Shown one piece after another: positions 21,807 through 29,165 of a stretch of DNA of 64,000 nt. Source of the DNA: Sulfurospirillum halorespirans DSM 13726 (GTDB lineage: Bacteria > Campylobacterota > Campylobacteria > Campylobacterales > Sulfurospirillaceae). Location: contig NZ_CP017111.1 in assembly GCF_001723605.1 (NCBI RefSeq), forward strand, positions 434,001 through 498,000, in the 5' to 3' direction. The position numbers were made by a program, and so were the translations under genes. The notes below the pieces were generated by a model. That model ran no database searches. It had not been told where the DNA came from and worked only from the letters and a program-made list of their open reading frames with translations. Every line of letters starts with the position of its first letter. The stretch's first letter is position 1.

Positions 21807-21894
21807 CTTTAAAAAATAGTGTTAAATCAATAATGCCCTAGATTGCTTGAAGAAAGGTGCTCTACAATAGAGAAAATATACCTAAGGAGAAAAT

Positions 21895-22635
21895 ATGAAA
21901 AAGTTTTTAGTGGCTACAATAATGTTATGCCTTGCAACATGGGGCTTTGCTAAAGAGGGTTTTGTCACGTATGTGGTCGATGGAAAAATGTATGAGGGTT
22001 ACTATAGCACCCCCTCAGATGAGGCGCCCCTTGTTTTTATTATTCACGACTGGGATGGACTGAATGAGTACGAGATGACACGCGCAAAGATGCTCAATGA
22101 TCTAGGTTATGGTGCATTTGCGATAGACCTTTTTGGCAAAGGCGTCAAACCTGTTACGATTGATGAAAAAAAAGCACTGACCAACGCGCTTTACAAGGAC
22201 AGGGCTAAGATGCGAAAGCTTCTGGATGCGAGTTACCAAGCGGCTAGAAAAGAGGGTGCAAACGTGGCAAATTCTATAGGAATTGGTTACTGTTTTGGCG
22301 GCGCAGCACTTTTGGAGATGGCACGCATGGGAACCTCACTCAAAGGGTTTGTCAGTTTTCATGGAGGTTTAGCAACGCCTGCTGGAGAAGACTACACGCA
22401 AACAAAAGGCTTTGTGCTTATATTGCACGGATCAGCCGATGAGAGCGTGAGTTTAGATGAATTTGCAGGACTCGCCAAAGAGCTTGAAAAAACAGGCATC
22501 AAGCATGAGATGATCACCTACAGTGGCGCTCCTCACGCATTTACCGTTTTTGGAACCGATCGTTATAGAGAAGCAGCTGATAAAAAATCGTGGAGAAGAT
22601 TGGTCGAATTTGTCGATGAAACACTCTCAAAATAG
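21895..22635 (+). CDS. Exported dienelactone hydrolase-family protein
   Basis: A 246-residue alpha/beta hydrolase with a signal peptide (KKFLVATIMLCLATWGFA). The DLH triad is visible: Cys nucleophile in GIGYCFGGA, Asp in HGSADESV and His in GAPHAFTVFG. These enzymes open lactone rings or act as general esterases; export to the periplasm suggests a scavenging esterase. It starts at ATG 21895 behind AAGGAG. It stands alone and is divergent from the PhoX-like gene. Confidence 0.83.
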   Translation: MKKFLVATIMLCLATWGFAKEGFVTYVVDGKMYEGYYSTPSDEAPLVFIIHDWDGLNEYEMTRAKMLNDLGYGAFAIDLFGKGVKPVTIDEKKALTNALYKDRAKMRKLLDASYQAARKEGANVANSIGIGYCFGGAALLEMARMGTSLKGFVSFHGGLATPAGEDYTQTKGFVLILHGSADESVSLDEFAGLAKELEKTGIKHEMITYSGAPHAFTVFGTDRYREAADKKSWRRLVEFVDETLSK

Positions 22636-23392: not shown

Positions 23393-23698
23393 GTGGATCT
23401 CCTAATGTCAATCTATGAGTTATTCTATCAAAAGCAGGCTCAAACTGGCTTAAGCGAAATTTTCTATTATTAGAGTTCTACAAGAACTCTGCAACACGCT
23501 TTTAGAGCAAAGCTGTAAAAGCTACGTTAACACTGGGTTTTCTTCGGCAGAAAGCCCACGCACCTTTGGCGCTTTCCCTTCTTGTAAAACTTAATGTGCA
23601 AGAACTCTATTAAAGCGTCACTATTTCATTATTTATGATCTTTTTAGATACAATTAAAAAATTTACAGTGGTATTAGGTTTGCAAGAGGGGGCTTTGC
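23393..23698. other. 306-bp spacer carrying a structured repeat
   Basis: No gene is apparent. It holds an inverted repeat AGAGTTCT-ACA-AGAACTCT (23472-23490), one copy of the 82-bp repeat (23494-23575), and a second CAAGAACTCT at 23599-23608, so the repeat is flanked by 10-bp direct repeats. A promoter for the GGDEF/EAL gene should lie in the last 80 bp. Confidence 0.6.
23494..23575 (+). repeat. 82-bp structured repeat, copy 1
   Basis: 74 of 82 bases match the reverse complement of 28071-28152. It contains a hairpin CTTTTAGAGC-AAA-GCTGTAAAAG (one mismatch) and a second weaker dyad, GCACC/GGCGC. It is flanked by CAAGAACTCT on both sides (23481-23490 and 23599-23608), which could be a target duplication. 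Confidence 0.8.
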
Positions 23699-25003
23699 AT
23701 GGCGAATAGTAGCGAAAAAGAGCAAGATCAAAAAGAAAAAATCAAACACCTTTCCAAAGAGCTTCGCGCCGTGCAGAAAAATCTTGTGGAGCAGTTTTAC
23801 ACCGACCCACTCACGCGCCTTCCGAACCTCTATAAATTGCGCCATGACCTCGAAGAGATTAGTGATTTTACACTGATTATCGCCAACATCGACAACTTCA
23901 AACTGCTCAATGATTTTTACGGGTTTGTTGTGGGTGATTTTATCTTAGAATCTTTTGCAAAAAGCCTTAAAACCGAACTTCAAGATGTAAGCGTTTACCG
24001 CATGGCAGGCGATGAATTTGCCATTTTACTCCATGAACGCATGAGTTTTTACCTCTTGAAAAATTACCTTACCTATCTCTCCCGTCAACTCACCCATCTG
24101 AAGTACGCTTACGCGCAAACGGAGATTTACGTTGACTGCACGCTTTCATCCAGTGCTAGTTTTTCACACAGTGACATCTTTTCCAAAGTGAGTATGGCGC
24201 TCAAATATGCCAAAAGAGAACAGCTCAAGTTTTGGATTTTTGAAGATACAATGAACTTCTCGCAAGAGTACGAAAGCAATCTCAAATACGCCACTAAAGT
24301 GCGTAAAGCCATTATGGATTTCTCAGGCATCGTGCCTTATTTCCAACCCATCATCGACAACAAAACCGATGAAATCATCAAGTTTGAAGCACTTTCTCGT
24401 TTGGTCGATGAAGAGGGCGTCATCCACTCACCGCACAATTTTATTCCAATCGCGAAGATGATTAAAGTCTACGATAAAATCACGATGGCGATCATCGACA
24501 AAAGCTTCAAAGTGTTTGAAACGCATCCGTTTGACTTTAGCATCAACCTCTCGTTTGAGGACATCATCAACGAAGAGATTTACGACTTTATCATCCGAAA
24601 ACTGCGCGATTCCAACATGGGGCATCGCGTCACGTTTGAACTTTTAGAGTCTGAACGGGTCAACGACTTCAACAAAGTCATGCACTTTTTCAATGAAATC
24701 AAGCGCTACGGTGCCAAAGTCGCGATCGATGATTTTGGAAGCGGATTTTCCAACTTCTCCTACATCATCAAGCTCAATCCCGATTTTATCAAGATCGATG
24801 GCAGTCTCATCAAAGACATCGACAAAGATAAAAATGCCCAAATCGTCGTTGAAACCATTGTCGACTTCTCCAAAAAAATGGGCATCAAAACCGTCGCAGA
24901 ATTCGTCCACTCCAGCACGGTTCTCTCCACGGTCAAACAGCTTGGCATCGACTACTCGCAGGGCTATTTCATCGACATGCCATCCCCTCAAATCGATCTG
25001 TAA
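23699..25003 (+). CDS. GGDEF/EAL-domain cyclic-di-GMP protein
   Basis: A 434-residue cytoplasmic protein with a short N-terminal coiled coil (residues 5-35), a GGDEF domain (about 35-185) and an EAL domain (about 200-430). The GGDEF motif reads AGDEF (about 104-108), a variant that can still be active. The EAL motif (KFEALSRL, 230-232), DDFGSG and AEFV are intact, so it is more likely a phosphodiesterase, or a dual enzyme, that sets cyclic-di-GMP levels. There is no membrane or sensory domain. It follows the structured repeat; its stop is 18 bp from that of the convergent gene, a gap filled largely by a palindrome. Confidence 0.88.
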   Translation: MANSSEKEQDQKEKIKHLSKELRAVQKNLVEQFYTDPLTRLPNLYKLRHDLEEISDFTLIIANIDNFKLLNDFYGFVVGDFILESFAKSLKTELQDVSVYRMAGDEFAILLHERMSFYLLKNYLTYLSRQLTHLKYAYAQTEIYVDCTLSSSASFSHSDIFSKVSMALKYAKREQLKFWIFEDTMNFSQEYESNLKYATKVRKAIMDFSGIVPYFQPIIDNKTDEIIKFEALSRLVDEEGVIHSPHNFIPIAKMIKVYDKITMAIIDKSFKVFETHPFDFSINLSFEDIINEEIYDFIIRKLRDSNMGHRVTFELLESERVNDFNKVMHFFNEIKRYGAKVAIDDFGSGFSNFSYIIKLNPDFIKIDGSLIKDIDKDKNAQIVVETIVDFSKKMGIKTVAEFVHSSTVLSTVKQLGIDYSQGYFIDMPSPQIDL

Positions 25004-25008
25004 CATCG

Positions 25009-25018
25009 TTACATGTAA
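25009..25018. repeat. Dispersed palindrome between convergent stops
   Basis: TTACATGTAA takes up ten of the 18 bases between the stop of the GGDEF/EAL gene and that of the zinc-ribbon gene. Confidence 0.85.
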
Positions 25019-25021
25019 AGG

Positions 25022-25372
25022 CTAAGCCACTTCCGTATCCCACAAAATACTCACGCCGTATTCGGGATCGGGAATGACGTACTTAAAGTATTCGCTCGTC
25101 CCCTTGCGCCCATGCAAACGCACCGCAATTTGCCCCTCTTTTAAAAGCTGCTTCATCTCATACTCGCTGAGGCTTCGTTTATTCCAGCGTAAAAAGGTGT
25201 TAGAGTAAACCCGAAACCGACACGAAGAAGTGGCACTAAAAACATAATCATCGTTGATGTCACGCTCTTTTGTTGCATGCTCACACGTATAAAGATTGAC
25301 CTTTTGACCTTGAATGGTAAGCTTTTGCGAGATCACATTACCACCGCAATACGGGCATTTGCCAAGAATCAT
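25022..25372 (-). CDS. Zinc-ribbon protein resembling topoisomerase C-terminal fingers
   Basis: A 116-residue protein. The start CPYCGGNVI, followed by LYTCEH and SSCRFRV, forms a four-cysteine ribbon like those at the C-terminus of type IA topoisomerases. The second half (KRSLSEYEMKQLLKEGQ, then LHGRKG) also follows that family's pattern after the finger. As a stand-alone protein it may bind single-stranded DNA or a nucleic-acid enzyme. Function is inferred from the fold only. Confidence 0.6.
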   Translation of the reverse strand: MILGKCPYCGGNVISQKLTIQGQKVNLYTCEHATKERDINDDYVFSATSSCRFRVYSNTFLRWNKRSLSEYEMKQLLKEGQIAVRLHGRKGTSEYFKYVIPDPEYGVSILWDTEVA

Positions 25373-25480
25373 GATGCACCTCAGTTTTGATTTATGGGGT
25401 TATGGTAGCAAAGTGGGAAGTGATAGGTTGAAAATATTTCAGAATGAAAGAAAAGGAAGAGACAATCTCTTCCTTTGATG

Positions 25481-25885
25481 TTAAAAAATTGGAACGTTAT
25501 ATTTTTTCATACACGCTGTTAATTTTTCTAAGTATTCAGGATTATTTTCACCAGTCGCTGGTGGAACACGTAAATTGCAACATAAAACGGATAGCGTCGC
25601 ATTGTCTTTTGTTGTTGCAGTTAATGATTCAGGTACATAAGCTAGGAATCCTGAGTCCTTGTAGAGTTTATCGATCTCATCATGGGTTAATGAATAAATA
25701 ATGCCACTCGCTTTACTGTTTTCATCTCTTAACAACGTTGCCAACTTCCCAATTCTGAGTTTATAACCTTTTACTGTGGCAATTCTGGGATTTCGAGGTG
25801 TTACCTCTTTGCTAGTGAGGATTTCTGGATCCATATATAACCCATAAAAAAAGACTTCGTGTAGTCTATGTCCTGAATTGTCCAT
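25481..25885 (-). CDS. Gamma-glutamylcyclotransferase-like (AIG2 family) protein
   Basis: A 134-residue protein with the family's start VFFYGLYMDPEIL, the substrate-binding loop that recognises gamma-glutamyl groups, and GIIYSLTHDEIDKLYKDSGF, where the catalytic Glu usually sits just before the helix. Family members release 5-oxoproline from gamma-glutamyl compounds. The sequence diverges from studied enzymes, so substrate is open. A region on the other strand opens 85 codons but lacks any family pattern and is not coding. Confidence 0.72.
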   Translation of the reverse strand: MDNSGHRLHEVFFYGLYMDPEILTSKEVTPRNPRIATVKGYKLRIGKLATLLRDENSKASGIIYSLTHDEIDKLYKDSGFLAYVPESLTATTKDNATLSVLCCNLRVPPATGENNPEYLEKLTACMKKYNVPIF

Positions 25886-25936
25886 GTGTAAATTCCTTTA
25901 TAAATAGTTTTTTTCAGATTACATTTTGTAGTTACT

Positions 25937-26359
25937 TTACAAAAACCTCTCCACAAAACGATCCAAATCTTCATCGCTCATTGCTCCACTCACACGCTCG
26001 ACCTCTTCGCCATTTTTAAAAACAATCAGCGTTGGAATAGAACGAATTTTAAAACGTGAAGCCAAAAATTGTTCGGCTTCGGTGTCGACTTTGGCAAAAA
26101 GAACACGAAGCGGATAGGCGCGTGCGGCTTGTTGAAATGTAGGGGCGAAGGCTTTGCACGGGGCACACCACGGTGCCCAAAAGTCGACGATGACGGGAAC
26201 ATCGGTGTTGCCTAGGACGGCTTCAAGAATGTCGCTGGTGAGAGCAATGGGGTGTGGGTCGAGCAGGGACGTTTGGCATTTGCCGCAGTTTGCTTTTTTG
26301 TAGACTTCGAGTTTTGGGACATTATTGGTAGCCAAACAGTTGGGACAGATGACTTTCAT
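25937..26359 (-). CDS. trxC: Thioredoxin 2 (zinc-finger thioredoxin)
   Basis: A 140-residue thioredoxin. An N-terminal zinc finger (CPNC at residues 5-8 and CGKC at 25-28) precedes a thioredoxin domain with the active site WCAPC (64-68), cis-proline in RSIPTL and the usual VDFWAPWC lead-in. It reduces disulphides in the cytoplasm, and members of this type are often raised under oxidative stress. It lies 3 bp downstream of the D-glutamate-cyclase-type gene on the same strand and is probably co-transcribed with it. Confidence 0.92.
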   Translation of the reverse strand: MKVICPNCLATNNVPKLEVYKKANCGKCQTSLLDPHPIALTSDILEAVLGNTDVPVIVDFWAPWCAPCKAFAPTFQQAARAYPLRVLFAKVDTEAEQFLASRFKIRSIPTLIVFKNGEEVERVSGAMSDEDLDRFVERFL

Positions 26360-26362
26360 GAT

Positions 26363-27199
26363 TTATCCTTGTGTTGCGTATGCTTTTAAGGCACTGAGTA
26401 TTTCAGGTTCTATCGACCACTCTTTGCCATCTACCGACATCACCGATTCGCGTTTGATGCCATCAACCGAGCCTTTGGCGACGATAAATTCAAGGTATTT
26501 TTCAACCTCTTCAAAGCTGGGTAAAACGTTTACATGTAAAACCTTTTCAAGCTCGGCGATAAAGCCATATCCTCCCCAGTTGGAAACCGATGCGATCATC
26601 GGGTAGTCGCAGGGAATGACGCAGTAGTCGTAGAAAAATTCTTTATCTTTGAGAACATCCGCAAAGCTTCCCATGCCGACTTCATTGCCGCCATCGCCGA
26701 TGCCAAAGCTTGGAGCGGTTTTGCTTCCTAGTTTGAAAAGCTCATCGACAGGCGCGGTAAATTCTTTGATGTCTACGCCGCGTGAGTTCAGGTAACTTCC
26801 TTCATGGTTTTGCCCGCAACGTTCGATGGAGAGGTGCGCTATGGGTTTGTAGGTATCTAAAAGCATCTCGTATTCTTGGTGGCTTAGTCCCTCAAGTGGA
26901 ATGTAGAGGGTTTTAATATCAAAAAAGTAGTCTTCACAAAAATGATCGGTTACAATCACAGGGGTGTAGCCCAATTTTTCAAAGGCTTTTGCTAAAAAGT
27001 ATGCTCCTAAAGGGCCATCGGTTTCAGCAAAACCTGCAACGTAAAAACCGGTGTAGATGAAAATAACACCTTTATTCAGTTTTAAAAAAGCTTGAACAGC
27101 ATTTTTGGTGTGTTCATTGGGAAAGTGAGCCTGAATTTTATCCATATGACGTGTAGAGTGTTGAAGAACGATCTCTTCAATGGTATGAAAATTGCGCAT
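26363..27199 (-). CDS. DUF4392-family protein (D-glutamate cyclase C-terminal type)
   Basis: A 278-residue protein. The glycine-rich GIGDGGNEVGMG is the hallmark of DUF4392, the C-terminal domain of the mammalian D-glutamate cyclase DGLUCY. FYVAGFAETDGPLGAYFLA and LSIERCGQNHEGSYLNSRG also fit the family. It is divergent from a DUF1445 gene (27287), which matches the N-terminal half of the same mammalian protein, so the two bacterial genes together equal the fused enzyme. It probably converts D-glutamate and 5-oxo-D-proline. One palindrome (26530) encodes Leu-His-Val. trxC follows 3 bp later. Confidence 0.82.
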   Translation of the reverse strand: MRNFHTIEEIVLQHSTRHMDKIQAHFPNEHTKNAVQAFLKLNKGVIFIYTGFYVAGFAETDGPLGAYFLAKAFEKLGYTPVIVTDHFCEDYFFDIKTLYIPLEGLSHQEYEMLLDTYKPIAHLSIERCGQNHEGSYLNSRGVDIKEFTAPVDELFKLGSKTAPSFGIGDGGNEVGMGSFADVLKDKEFFYDYCVIPCDYPMIASVSNWGGYGFIAELEKVLHVNVLPSFEEVEKYLEFIVAKGSVDGIKRESVMSVDGKEWSIEPEILSALKAYATQG

Positions 27200-27206
27200 G
27201 AAAGCC

Positions 27207-27218
27207 TTTACATGTAAA
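27207..27218. repeat. Dispersed palindrome in a divergent promoter region
   Basis: TTTACATGTAAA, 8 bp upstream of the DUF4392 start, at the position of its ribosome site on the minus strand. Confidence 0.85.
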
Positions 27219-27233
27219 AAAATATCTCAAAAA

Positions 27234-27258
27234 ATTGTATCTAAAAATTGGATACAAT
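27234..27258. promoter_or_regulatory. Operator-like dyad between the D-glutamate-cyclase-type genes
   Basis: ATTGTATC, 9-bp spacer, GATACAAT: a perfect 8-9-8 inverted repeat in the 87-bp divergent promoter region. It is well placed to control both genes together. The regulator is unknown. Confidence 0.5.
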
Positions 27259-27286
27259 TCGATTAGTTTTTGATTAAAGGATAACC

Positions 27287-28054
27287 ATGTCTCCGAAAGA
27301 GTTACGCGCAAAAATCGCCAAAGGCGAGTTTACCAGACCGACAGCGGGCGAGTGCCCTGGCTACATTCAGATGAATATGGTAGCCCTTCCTAAAGAGTAC
27401 GCGAAACGTTTTGAAGCGTTTGCGAAAGAGAATGCCAAAGCGATTCCAGTGCTTGAGGTGATCCATGAGGGACATCATTCGAGCATTTTAGCTAAAGGTG
27501 CTGACATCTTAAGCGAAATTCCAAAGTACAACATTTTGCGCGATGGCGTTGTGGTCGAAACGGTCACAGACATTACGCCTTATTACCAACCCGATTTGGT
27601 CTTTTTCTTGATTGGGTGTAGTTTTTCGTTTGAGACCGCACTCATTGAAAATGGCATGCCGCTTCGCCATGTTGATCAGCAAAAAAATGTCGCCATGTAC
27701 CGCACCAACATCGCGCTCAAACCCGTTGAAGGCTTTTCAGGCGAGATGGTCGTGAGCATGCGTCCGATCAAAAAAGAGAAGGTGGCGGATGCGTGTGTCG
27801 TGACGAGTCATTTTCCCCGAATGCACGGCTCACCGATACAAGTCGGTTACCCTGAAATGATCGGTATTCAGGAAATTTCAAAGCCTGATTATGGCGATGC
27901 GATTGAGATTAAAGCGGATGAAATTCCATTGTTTTGGCCTTGCGGTGTCACGCCTCAAAATGTCATCACGAGTATGAAACTCCCCTTTGCGATCACCCAC
28001 GCACCAGGGCACATGTTTGTAACGGACAAAAAAGATAGCGAATACTACGAGTAG
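27287..28054 (+). CDS. DUF1445-family D-glutamate cyclase-type protein
   Basis: A 255-residue protein of the DUF1445/putative hydro-lyase family. The stretches RPTAGECPGYIQMNMVALP, FFLIGCSFSFETALIENG, MYRTNIAL and FWPCGVTPQN are the family's conserved blocks, and length fits the usual 255-270. In the mammalian D-glutamate cyclase this domain is fused to DUF4392, whose gene is the divergent neighbour here, strong context for a shared pathway in D-glutamate or 5-oxoproline metabolism. AAAGGATAACC precedes ATG 27287. The 82-bp repeat follows 16 bp after the stop. Confidence 0.85.
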   Translation: MSPKELRAKIAKGEFTRPTAGECPGYIQMNMVALPKEYAKRFEAFAKENAKAIPVLEVIHEGHHSSILAKGADILSEIPKYNILRDGVVVETVTDITPYYQPDLVFFLIGCSFSFETALIENGMPLRHVDQQKNVAMYRTNIALKPVEGFSGEMVVSMRPIKKEKVADACVVTSHFPRMHGSPIQVGYPEMIGIQEISKPDYGDAIEIKADEIPLFWPCGVTPQNVITSMKLPFAITHAPGHMFVTDKKDSEYYE

Positions 28055-28070
28055 AATCCAATAGTGTCGT

Positions 28071-28152
28071 AAAGCACCAAAGGTGCGTGGGCACTCTGCC
28101 GAAGAGAACACAGCGTTAGCGTAGCTTTTAGAGCTTTGCTCTAAAAGCGTGT
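28071..28152 (-). repeat. 82-bp structured repeat, copy 2 (inverted relative to copy 1)
   Basis: Reverse-complement match to 23494-23575 at 74 of 82 bases. Here the hairpin CTTTTAGAGC-TTT-GCTCTAAAAG is perfect (10-bp arms) and a second hairpin, GCACC-AAA-GGTGC, is also perfect. It fills the space between two convergent genes and its last base is the first base of the deacetylase stop codon. It may serve as a terminator there. Confidence 0.8.
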
Positions 28153-29051
28153 CACGGTATAAAAGCTTCCTGTAAAGGGTGAAACTGATAGGTTTTAACC
28201 ACTTCAGGAAGCTTCTTCTCTAAAATCTCAATCCCTTGGGGTTCATTTTTATTGCCATGAATCAGGATGATACTTCCCGTTTTAATTGGTTCATTTTTCG
28301 CTATCCACGCGTTAGCTCCAAGAGGAATCAAAAAGTAGATCTCTCGAAGCTCACGCATCAGTTTTTCATCGGCAATGAGTCCAGGAAAGCGAAAAAAGAC
28401 CGAGGGCGTAATGCCTTCTTCTAACAATGTTTTCTCCACACCTAAAATCTCACTTTTGACATCGGTGTTTACATGTAACATAAAATTATCGCGAATCGGA
28501 AGTTTTGGGTCGTAAAAATGGGTGTGCGAATGGTTCACCCATGTGATCTGCAAAAGGAGATTGTTGACCAGCTCTTTAAACTCTTTCTCATGATGCTCTT
28601 TCCACGCAGAACTCAGCGCAATCGCAATCGGTATTTTACCGTTTTGCTTCGTGAGGTGTGCTATAAAATCGCTCTCATACCCTTTTTTGCTCGAAGGGCA
28701 AAGATCCATGCTGAGGTAAATCGCATTAGGATTTTGTGTGAGGGCGTGGGTCGCTCCACCGTTTACATGTAAAGCGGTTGCTTCTTTTAAACGCTTAGCA
28801 AAAAGACTTCGTTCAAAACGATCATCTAAGGGCAAAAGTTTGGTTGCATCGAGGGCGAGAACTTTCGTTTGTAGAGTTTGCGTGTTTGTGGTAAGGTAAA
28901 AGGTCACGTCACTGAGTTCAAAACGACGGGAAATAAGCCAAAGTACGCCATTTTGCTCGTACTCTTTGACAAAGACTTCGTAGCGCTTTATGTTCTCCAT
29001 TGCTACCAAAGGAAGCCAACAGAGCATCAAAGAGAGAATTAGTCGTAGCAT
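28152..29051 (-). CDS. Exported polysaccharide deacetylase-like protein
   Basis: A 299-residue protein with an N-terminal signal (MLRLILSLMLCWLPLVA) and a NodB-type carbohydrate esterase domain: AIYLSMDLCPSSKKG (motif 1, with the catalytic Asp and metal Asp spaced apart), WVNHSHTHFYD (motif 2, His-x-x-x-His), FFRFPGL (motif 3) and ILIHGN (last His). It would remove acetyl groups from peptidoglycan or a polysaccharide in the periplasm. ATG 29051 is best placed behind AAAGGAG. Two palindromes (28469 and 28763) are read as Leu-His-Val. Confidence 0.8.
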   Translation of the reverse strand: MLRLILSLMLCWLPLVAMENIKRYEVFVKEYEQNGVLWLISRRFELSDVTFYLTTNTQTLQTKVLALDATKLLPLDDRFERSLFAKRLKEATALHVNGGATHALTQNPNAIYLSMDLCPSSKKGYESDFIAHLTKQNGKIPIAIALSSAWKEHHEKEFKELVNNLLLQITWVNHSHTHFYDPKLPIRDNFMLHVNTDVKSEILGVEKTLLEEGITPSVFFRFPGLIADEKLMRELREIYFLIPLGANAWIAKNEPIKTGSIILIHGNKNEPQGIEILEKKLPEVVKTYQFHPLQEAFIP

Positions 29052-29165
29052 GCACACTCCTTTTACAAGAATTTTAGCTCTTTTTTGAAAAAATATGATT
29101 ATAATTTTGTAAATGCGGTGTTTGAAGTTTCAAACGGATTTTGAAGGCCTTTAAAGCCTAATTGT

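Follow-up and report, generated by a model that had tools for sequence, protein, structure and literature searches.

A dispersed hairpin core in Sulfurospirillum, carried in part by IS5-family miniature elements and possibly spread by a REP-like route

In the stretch of 64,000 nucleotides analysed here (Sulfurospirillum halorespirans DSM 13726, contig NZ_CP017111.1, positions 434,001 to 498,000 of the forward strand; hereafter the window), an initial annotation had pointed to a structured 82-bp repeat in two inverted copies 4.6 kb apart, and had proposed that it represents a small non-autonomous mobile element or one of the REP (repetitive extragenic palindrome) type. We find that both repeats are copies of a small, gene-less and hairpin-rich element, the core of which occurs scattered at positions that vary between genomes and keeps its structure from copy to copy. 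Copy 1 is well supported as a miniature inverted-repeat transposable element (MITE) of the IS5 family that carries the structured core, and copy 2 is the core alone, moved without IS5-type ends. Taken together, the observations favor (with a probability that we would place at roughly 0.72) a single family of short mobile elements that lack genes and have an 84-bp hairpin core as their common basis, in which an IS5-type MITE is combined with a core of REP-like character. The proposal of the annotation is thus borne out by the many copies, the empty orthologous sites, the covariation of the stems and the presence of a GTAG foot.

By blastn, copy 2 (genome 462071-462152, i.e. window 28071-28152, minus strand) aligned to copy 1 over 82 bases, 74 of which are identical (90%), in the opposite orientation as annotated, a similarity far beyond chance (E = 3e-26 within the own genome, a single contig of 3,029,840 bp, G000). 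The annotation had made its view dependent on further copies and on conservation of the stems, and both were found: a covariance model of the 84-bp core yielded 46 matches in the own genome (E below 1e-11) and 6 to 68 in each of the 24 genus genomes, all of which carry it, while the remaining members of the family and order showed few or no matches (ten in G039). The core has a fixed order, in which a hairpin (P2) is followed by a junction (CTACG-YTAAC-RCT), a second hairpin (P3) and a small third one (P4), and forty copies align nearly gap-free, with helices in core columns 6-30 (P2), 42-66 (P3) and 68-80 (P4) and with pairing in 89% of the cells. The hairpin described by the annotation is indeed kept in both copies and perfect in copy 2, its arms being 11 bp long instead of 10 (10 of 11 paired in copy 1).

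The stems were found to covary among copies. Within the own genome, two-sided changes occur in 13 of 26 pairs (7.3 in shuffles, 2 to 5 with slid pairing), and the Y and R of the junction (conserved as ACG-YTAAC-RCT; core positions 35 and 40) covary as T-A (130), C-G (67) and A-T (1), with 12 other combinations. A search pattern in which the P3 triplets and the whole of P2 were left free recovered at least 120 loci from genomes with names, the titles of which almost without exception indicate Campylobacterota (Sulfurospirillum, Sulfuricurvum, Sulfurimonas, Hydrogenimonas, Nitratifractor, Sulfurovum and unclassified Campylobacterales). Of the three free P3 positions, two are paired in 99% of 123 Campylobacterota sequences, and the 22 distinct triplet combinations score 2.36 as compared to 1.08 when shuffled (0 of 2000 shuffles reached the score). 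The P2 stems share no common sequence between genera, yet half of them have at least 8 pairs, which no shuffled average did; their foot on the minus strand (positions likewise left free) reads GTAG in 105 and GYAG in 110 of 122 sequences. Of 210 cores, 169 have a P2 that folds more stably on the minus strand (plus strand 20); for P3 the preference is the reverse (plus strand 172, minus strand 37). Tandem core arrays of at least 4 units (period ~80-110 bp) were observed in S. cavolei, a Campylobacteraceae metagenome-assembled genome (MAG) and a Hydrogenimonas MAG (G021:C1:664554-664914; L317; L326). A viral contig collection contained one core match (L391 5684-5779, with P4 lengthened), and phage carriage was therefore dismissed as the main route.

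Strong stem covariation, together with conserved loops and a conserved junction, a P4-like hairpin in 104 of 122 sequences and a T-rich stretch after it in 78, could also typify a regulatory RNA (a small RNA or an element of 3' untranslated regions, with P4 and its T-run as terminator), whose stems would be kept for the host at each site. We regard this as quite unlikely, since the copies show no preferred orientation towards genes (7 sense, 14 antisense, 12 convergent and 9 divergent), P2 and P3 favor opposite strands, the positions differ between sister species, and an Rfam search of the window region and 19 related loci at relaxed E-values gave no credible match. A repeated terminator, as suggested by the annotation, would be at most a side effect of P4 and its T-run; the two are present in many copies, and the orientation of the copies to genes is not biased. 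Moreover, in 12 orthologous pairs between the own genome and its sister species (G008, probably S. multivorans), the core diverged by 3.7%, the arms by 3.2% and the flanks by 4.1%; in these same pairs stems differ by 3.3% and unpaired positions by 2.5%, with 0 compensatory and 15 pair-altering changes. As the orthologous core diverges like its flanks and without compensation, the copies are not visibly held by selection on site, and the covariation must therefore have arisen in the spreading lineages. The structure thus seems to be needed for spreading and not at each site; once inserted, a copy would decay like neutral DNA.

Many Sulfurospirillum copies carry terminal inverted repeats of the IS5 family together with ANT target duplications, i.e. 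they are MITEs. Full-length copies (~136 bp) contain no open reading frame or transposase gene and are insertion-polymorphic between relatives; among 113 Sulfurospirillum copies both ends were found in 46, the left only in 24, the right only in 17 and none in 26. The flanking trinucleotides are identical in 31 of the 46 two-ended copies (ATT 19, AAT 8), as compared to 14 on average and at most 22 in shuffles, with orthologous copies being counted more than once. The syntenic comparison of the own genome with G008 revealed empty sites in both directions, a clean one being found at G008:320926 (AATC-ATT-[AGAGTTC...AAGTCT]-ATT-A vs AATC-ATT-A). Copy 1 is present in G008 and G004, and its orthologous site is empty in more distant congeners. 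The 10-bp direct repeats CAAGAACTCT that the annotation had noticed around it do exist (23481-23490 and 23599-23608), and their interpretation as a footprint of transposition fails: the left-hand one forms the inner arm of the palindrome at that end and the right-hand one is the terminal inverted repeat of its own end, so that both are element termini, and the true flanking duplication is ATT (Table 1).

Scanning the own genome for the end sequence revealed end pairs 892 bp apart that flank a transposase, and which belong to four near-identical copies of a 907-bp insertion sequence (IS) with two overlapping reading frames (HTH_Tnp_4; DDE_Tnp_4) and AAT duplications; both frames match an IS5-family model, below the curated whole-protein cut-off. 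A 916-bp relative (~67% identical to this 907-bp element) occurs in G008, G017, G023, G015 and G011, ends in the terminal repeat AGACATCTTGCAAAACTC and is flanked by AAT, ATT or ACT duplications. Its terminal repeat is matched by the right-end consensus of our repeat (reverse complement, AGACTTCTTGCAAAACTC) at 17 of 18 positions and by the left-end consensus (AGAGTTCTTGCAGAACTC) at 15 of 18; the plus strand of the window holds no match of at least 16/18. The own-genome 907-bp element was rejected as partner because its terminal repeat reaches only 15/18, which makes the 916-bp IS of the sister species the better one. IS5-type elements with ANT duplications are placed in subgroup ISL2. Since the IS5 ends and ANT duplications point to an IS5 transposase, we regard the end-bearing copies as MITEs with the core as cargo, and such a transposase, acting in trans, would have moved them (copy 1 included). 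They resemble other IS5-family MITEs in being short and gene-less, in having ends that match an IS (here of a sister species), in the 3-bp ANT duplication and in their many polymorphic copies, and differ in that the interior is not IS-derived but a covarying core found phylum-wide without these ends. Smaller MITEs with the same ends but no core exist as well (L416, L417).

Copy 2 is present in the own genome and in G004, and its site is empty, with closed-up flanks, in G008, G006, G017, G023, G012, G015, G009, G020, G013 and G001. The stretch that copy 2 replaces deviates from these empty sites at two or three bases, with no sign of a duplication; IS5-type terminal inverted repeats were sought at copy 2 and not found. 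Both copies are intergenic as annotated, with the refinement that copy 2 contributes the final two nucleotides of the TGA stop of the neighboring gene (28152-29057), a codon that reads TAA in empty-site relatives (e.g. G008). Core-only copies that start with GA can supply the TGA stop of a neighbor in this way when the base just before them is a T (window 28150-28154; L014, L032). The possibility of an inversion of the 4.6-kb interval, raised by the annotation, found no support, as G008 and G004 hold the interval in the same order and orientation.

Table 1. Coordinates of the two copies and their parts within the window.
Feature	Position	Strand	Remarks
Copy 1, full-length MITE (137 bp)	23472..23608	+	Ends AGAGTTCT...AGAACTCT; IS5-type terminal inverted repeats around core
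Copy 1, left target-site duplication	23469..23471		ATT
Copy 1, right target-site duplication	23609..23611		ATT
Copy 1, left terminal inverted repeat	23472..23490	+	Palindrome AGAGTTCT-ACA-AGAACTCT; contains first CAAGAACTCT
Copy 1, right arm and right terminal inverted repeat	23578..23608	+	Contains second CAAGAACTCT
Copy 1, core (84 bp)	23493..23576	+	Alignment and covariance model
Copy 1, P2 hairpin	23498..23522	-	GTAG foot on minus (CTAC 23522-23525 on plus); covariation
Copy 1, conserved junction	23524..23534	+	ACGTTAACACT; core positions 35/40 covary
Copy 1, P3 hairpin	23534..23558	+	Loop TCGGC; invariant T.G pair
Copy 1, P4 hairpin	23560..23572	+	Followed by T-rich sequence
Copy 2, inserted segment	28058..28153	-	Core only; defined by empty sites, ends uncertain by ~2 bases
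Copy 2, core (84 bp)	28070..28153	-	Alignment and covariance model
Copy 2, P2 hairpin	28124..28148	+	Perfect, 11 bp, GCTTTTAGAGC-AAA-GCTCTAAAAGC; GTAG 28121-28124 at foot, plus strand
Copy 2, P3 hairpin	28088..28112	-	T-A pair here, A-T in G004 ortholog
Copy 2, P4 hairpin	28074..28086	-	GCACC-TTT-GGTGC, then TTTA

A second core-only insertion was recognized against an empty site at G008:2879682, and the cores of Sulfuricurvum, Hydrogenimonas and Sulfurimonas are without IS5-type ends; outside Sulfurospirillum, such ends were found only in the RZYK01 MAG set and in a soil MAG contig (L350), the copies of which look Sulfurospirillum-like. As copy 2 and the copies of other genera have no IS5-type ends, the core also spreads by another route. 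It could be argued that an IS5-family transposase moved all copies and that the core-only ones lost their ends later, in line with the many Sulfurospirillum copies that have a decayed or missing end. We consider this explanation rather unlikely, since on the left the segments of copy 2 and G008:2879682 stop where the core does, or close to it, and show no remnant of such ends, and since the cores of the three other genera lack them entirely.

The other route of the core would, with less certainty, act on single-stranded hairpins, as in the case of REP elements. This mechanism is suggested by analogy, because P2 combines (on its favored strand) a GTAG foot with a stem whose sequence is free and a loop that is restricted, and because P3 favors the other strand, as the partners in bacterial interspersed mosaic elements (BIMEs) do. 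Foot, variable stem and restricted loop match the determinants reported for recognition of REPs by TnpA-REP (PMC8266576, PMC3733652). These features, together with a Y1 gene in 23 of the 24 genus genomes (usually one per genome), also lend themselves to the explanation of a classical REP system, in which the core is spread by a Y1 protein resembling the REP-associated tyrosine transposases (RAYTs). The only such gene in the own genome (L041 1394-2237, genome 393.3-394.2 kb) neighbors what we take, from its sequence, to be gyrA, and is framed by an inverted repeat (AGGGGTCAGGGCTAAACTTTT) that is unrelated to the core. This gene and its repeat are conserved in nearly the whole genus, apparently as a vertically kept TIRYT. 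The frame fits the GGGGWSAS TIRYT type from the survey by Di Nocera et al. 2013 (PMC3733652), and the NHYH motif of the gene, like its taxon, agrees with a subclass that is reported to lack an association with REPs (PMC6006769). Furthermore, the RAYT that the annotation had suggested looking for was not found near any copy, which leaves us to judge a classical REP/RAYT system as distinctly improbable.

Several observations weigh against our own reading as well. No Y1/RAYT gene was found near any core, nor a core near any Y1 gene, and across 60 genomes RAYT presence does not track that of the core: G052 has cores without any Y1 match, and G029 and G043 have several Y1 genes without cores. In the light of this missing linkage and co-occurrence, what we propose is a REP-like mechanism without its enzyme. 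The strand preference of P2 rests mainly on one A.C position and that of P3 largely on T46.G62, an invariant pair; a duplication is not seen consistently at core-only insertions; and the close 916-bp IS partner was not found in the own genome, where the ~67% relative with the less similar terminal repeat was the only one. Lastly, the P3 of copy 2 shows one compensatory change in place (T-A to A-T, G000 vs G004); it counts in favor of the regulatory RNA and may be either an in-place change or a conversion from another copy.

Among known systems, GTAG REPs and BIMEs, as portrayed in the above survey (PMC3733652), are among the closest, as they are likewise intergenic, high-copy hairpins with a GTAG foot, have subfamilies with complementary changes in their stems, form some tandem clusters and include hairpin pairs on opposite strands; they differ from our 84-bp unit, with its conserved junction, second conserved hairpin and P4, its lack of a REPtron and its stems that differ completely between genera. 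Both the epsilon-Proteobacteria and Sulfurovum NBC37-1 appear in this survey as carriers of GTAG repeats, and therefore P2 may be partly catalogued already; among the papers searched, none described the repeat in Sulfurospirillum or Epsilonproteobacteria. Elements of the IS200/IS605 group and their non-autonomous derivatives share hairpins with a tetranucleotide foot and the absence of an obligatory target duplication, but have both hairpins acting on one strand, whereas here the strands that they favor are opposite and linkage to a Y1 gene is missing. The structured MITEs ERIC, BOX, NEMIS and bcr1 are also small, dispersed, intergenic and folding; no relation in sequence is apparent, and the likeness is drawn from descriptions in the literature. 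Integron attC sites were rejected by inspection, as the GYTAAC motif misfits the attC boxes and the copies are dispersed.

Besides this family, a second one (~20 places in the own genome, L193-L211; e.g. L203 1072-1148 and L194 1077-1150) has P2 and TACG in common with the first, and GCCRCTRKGGCRCTRAAGCTTGCC-hairpin-GGCAGAA as its other half; its P2 stems vary almost completely and still pair, and it likewise has an empty site (L202). At two intergenic sites (G000:C1:499001, L010; and 2959653, L017) the own genome has an element of the first family where G008 has one of the second, and it seems that either a replacement took place or both inserted at one position. Within the window, 21825-21946 is syntenic to a first-family MITE of G008 (430625) that the own genome lacks; CTCTATT is left at the site, between flanks that have diverged. 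We also observed that the palindrome TTACATGTAA occurs 41 times in the window (e.g. at 25009, 26530, 27208 and 28469), as compared to 0.09 expected from dinucleotides, and TTTACATGTAAA 21 times (0.012 expected). The density of TTACATGTAA is ~50 per 100 kb in stretches of the own genome and G008, similar in S. diekertiae, low in S. cavolei, and the motif is nearly absent in Sulfuricurvum, Hydrogenimonas and Sulfurimonas; it looks like a signature motif at the genus level.

In a broader and tentative view, against which we still see the odds, the core would represent an ancient class of Campylobacterota mobile elements apart from the RAYT-dependent REPs, with its hairpins on opposite strands, which in Sulfurospirillum was taken up as a whole by an IS5-type MITE. 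The family also raises the question of the enzyme by which a hairpin core with a GTAG foot is mobilized where no REPtron exists. With tens of copies per genome and precise empty sites, the family offers a marker for genome comparison in Sulfurospirillum, Sulfuricurvum, Sulfurimonas and Hydrogenimonas. Moreover, stems that covary across the phylum but not between orthologs separate structure for spread from structure for the host, and a core that travels both alone and inside IS5-type ends provides a natural example of how one non-autonomous element can hitch-hike on a second.

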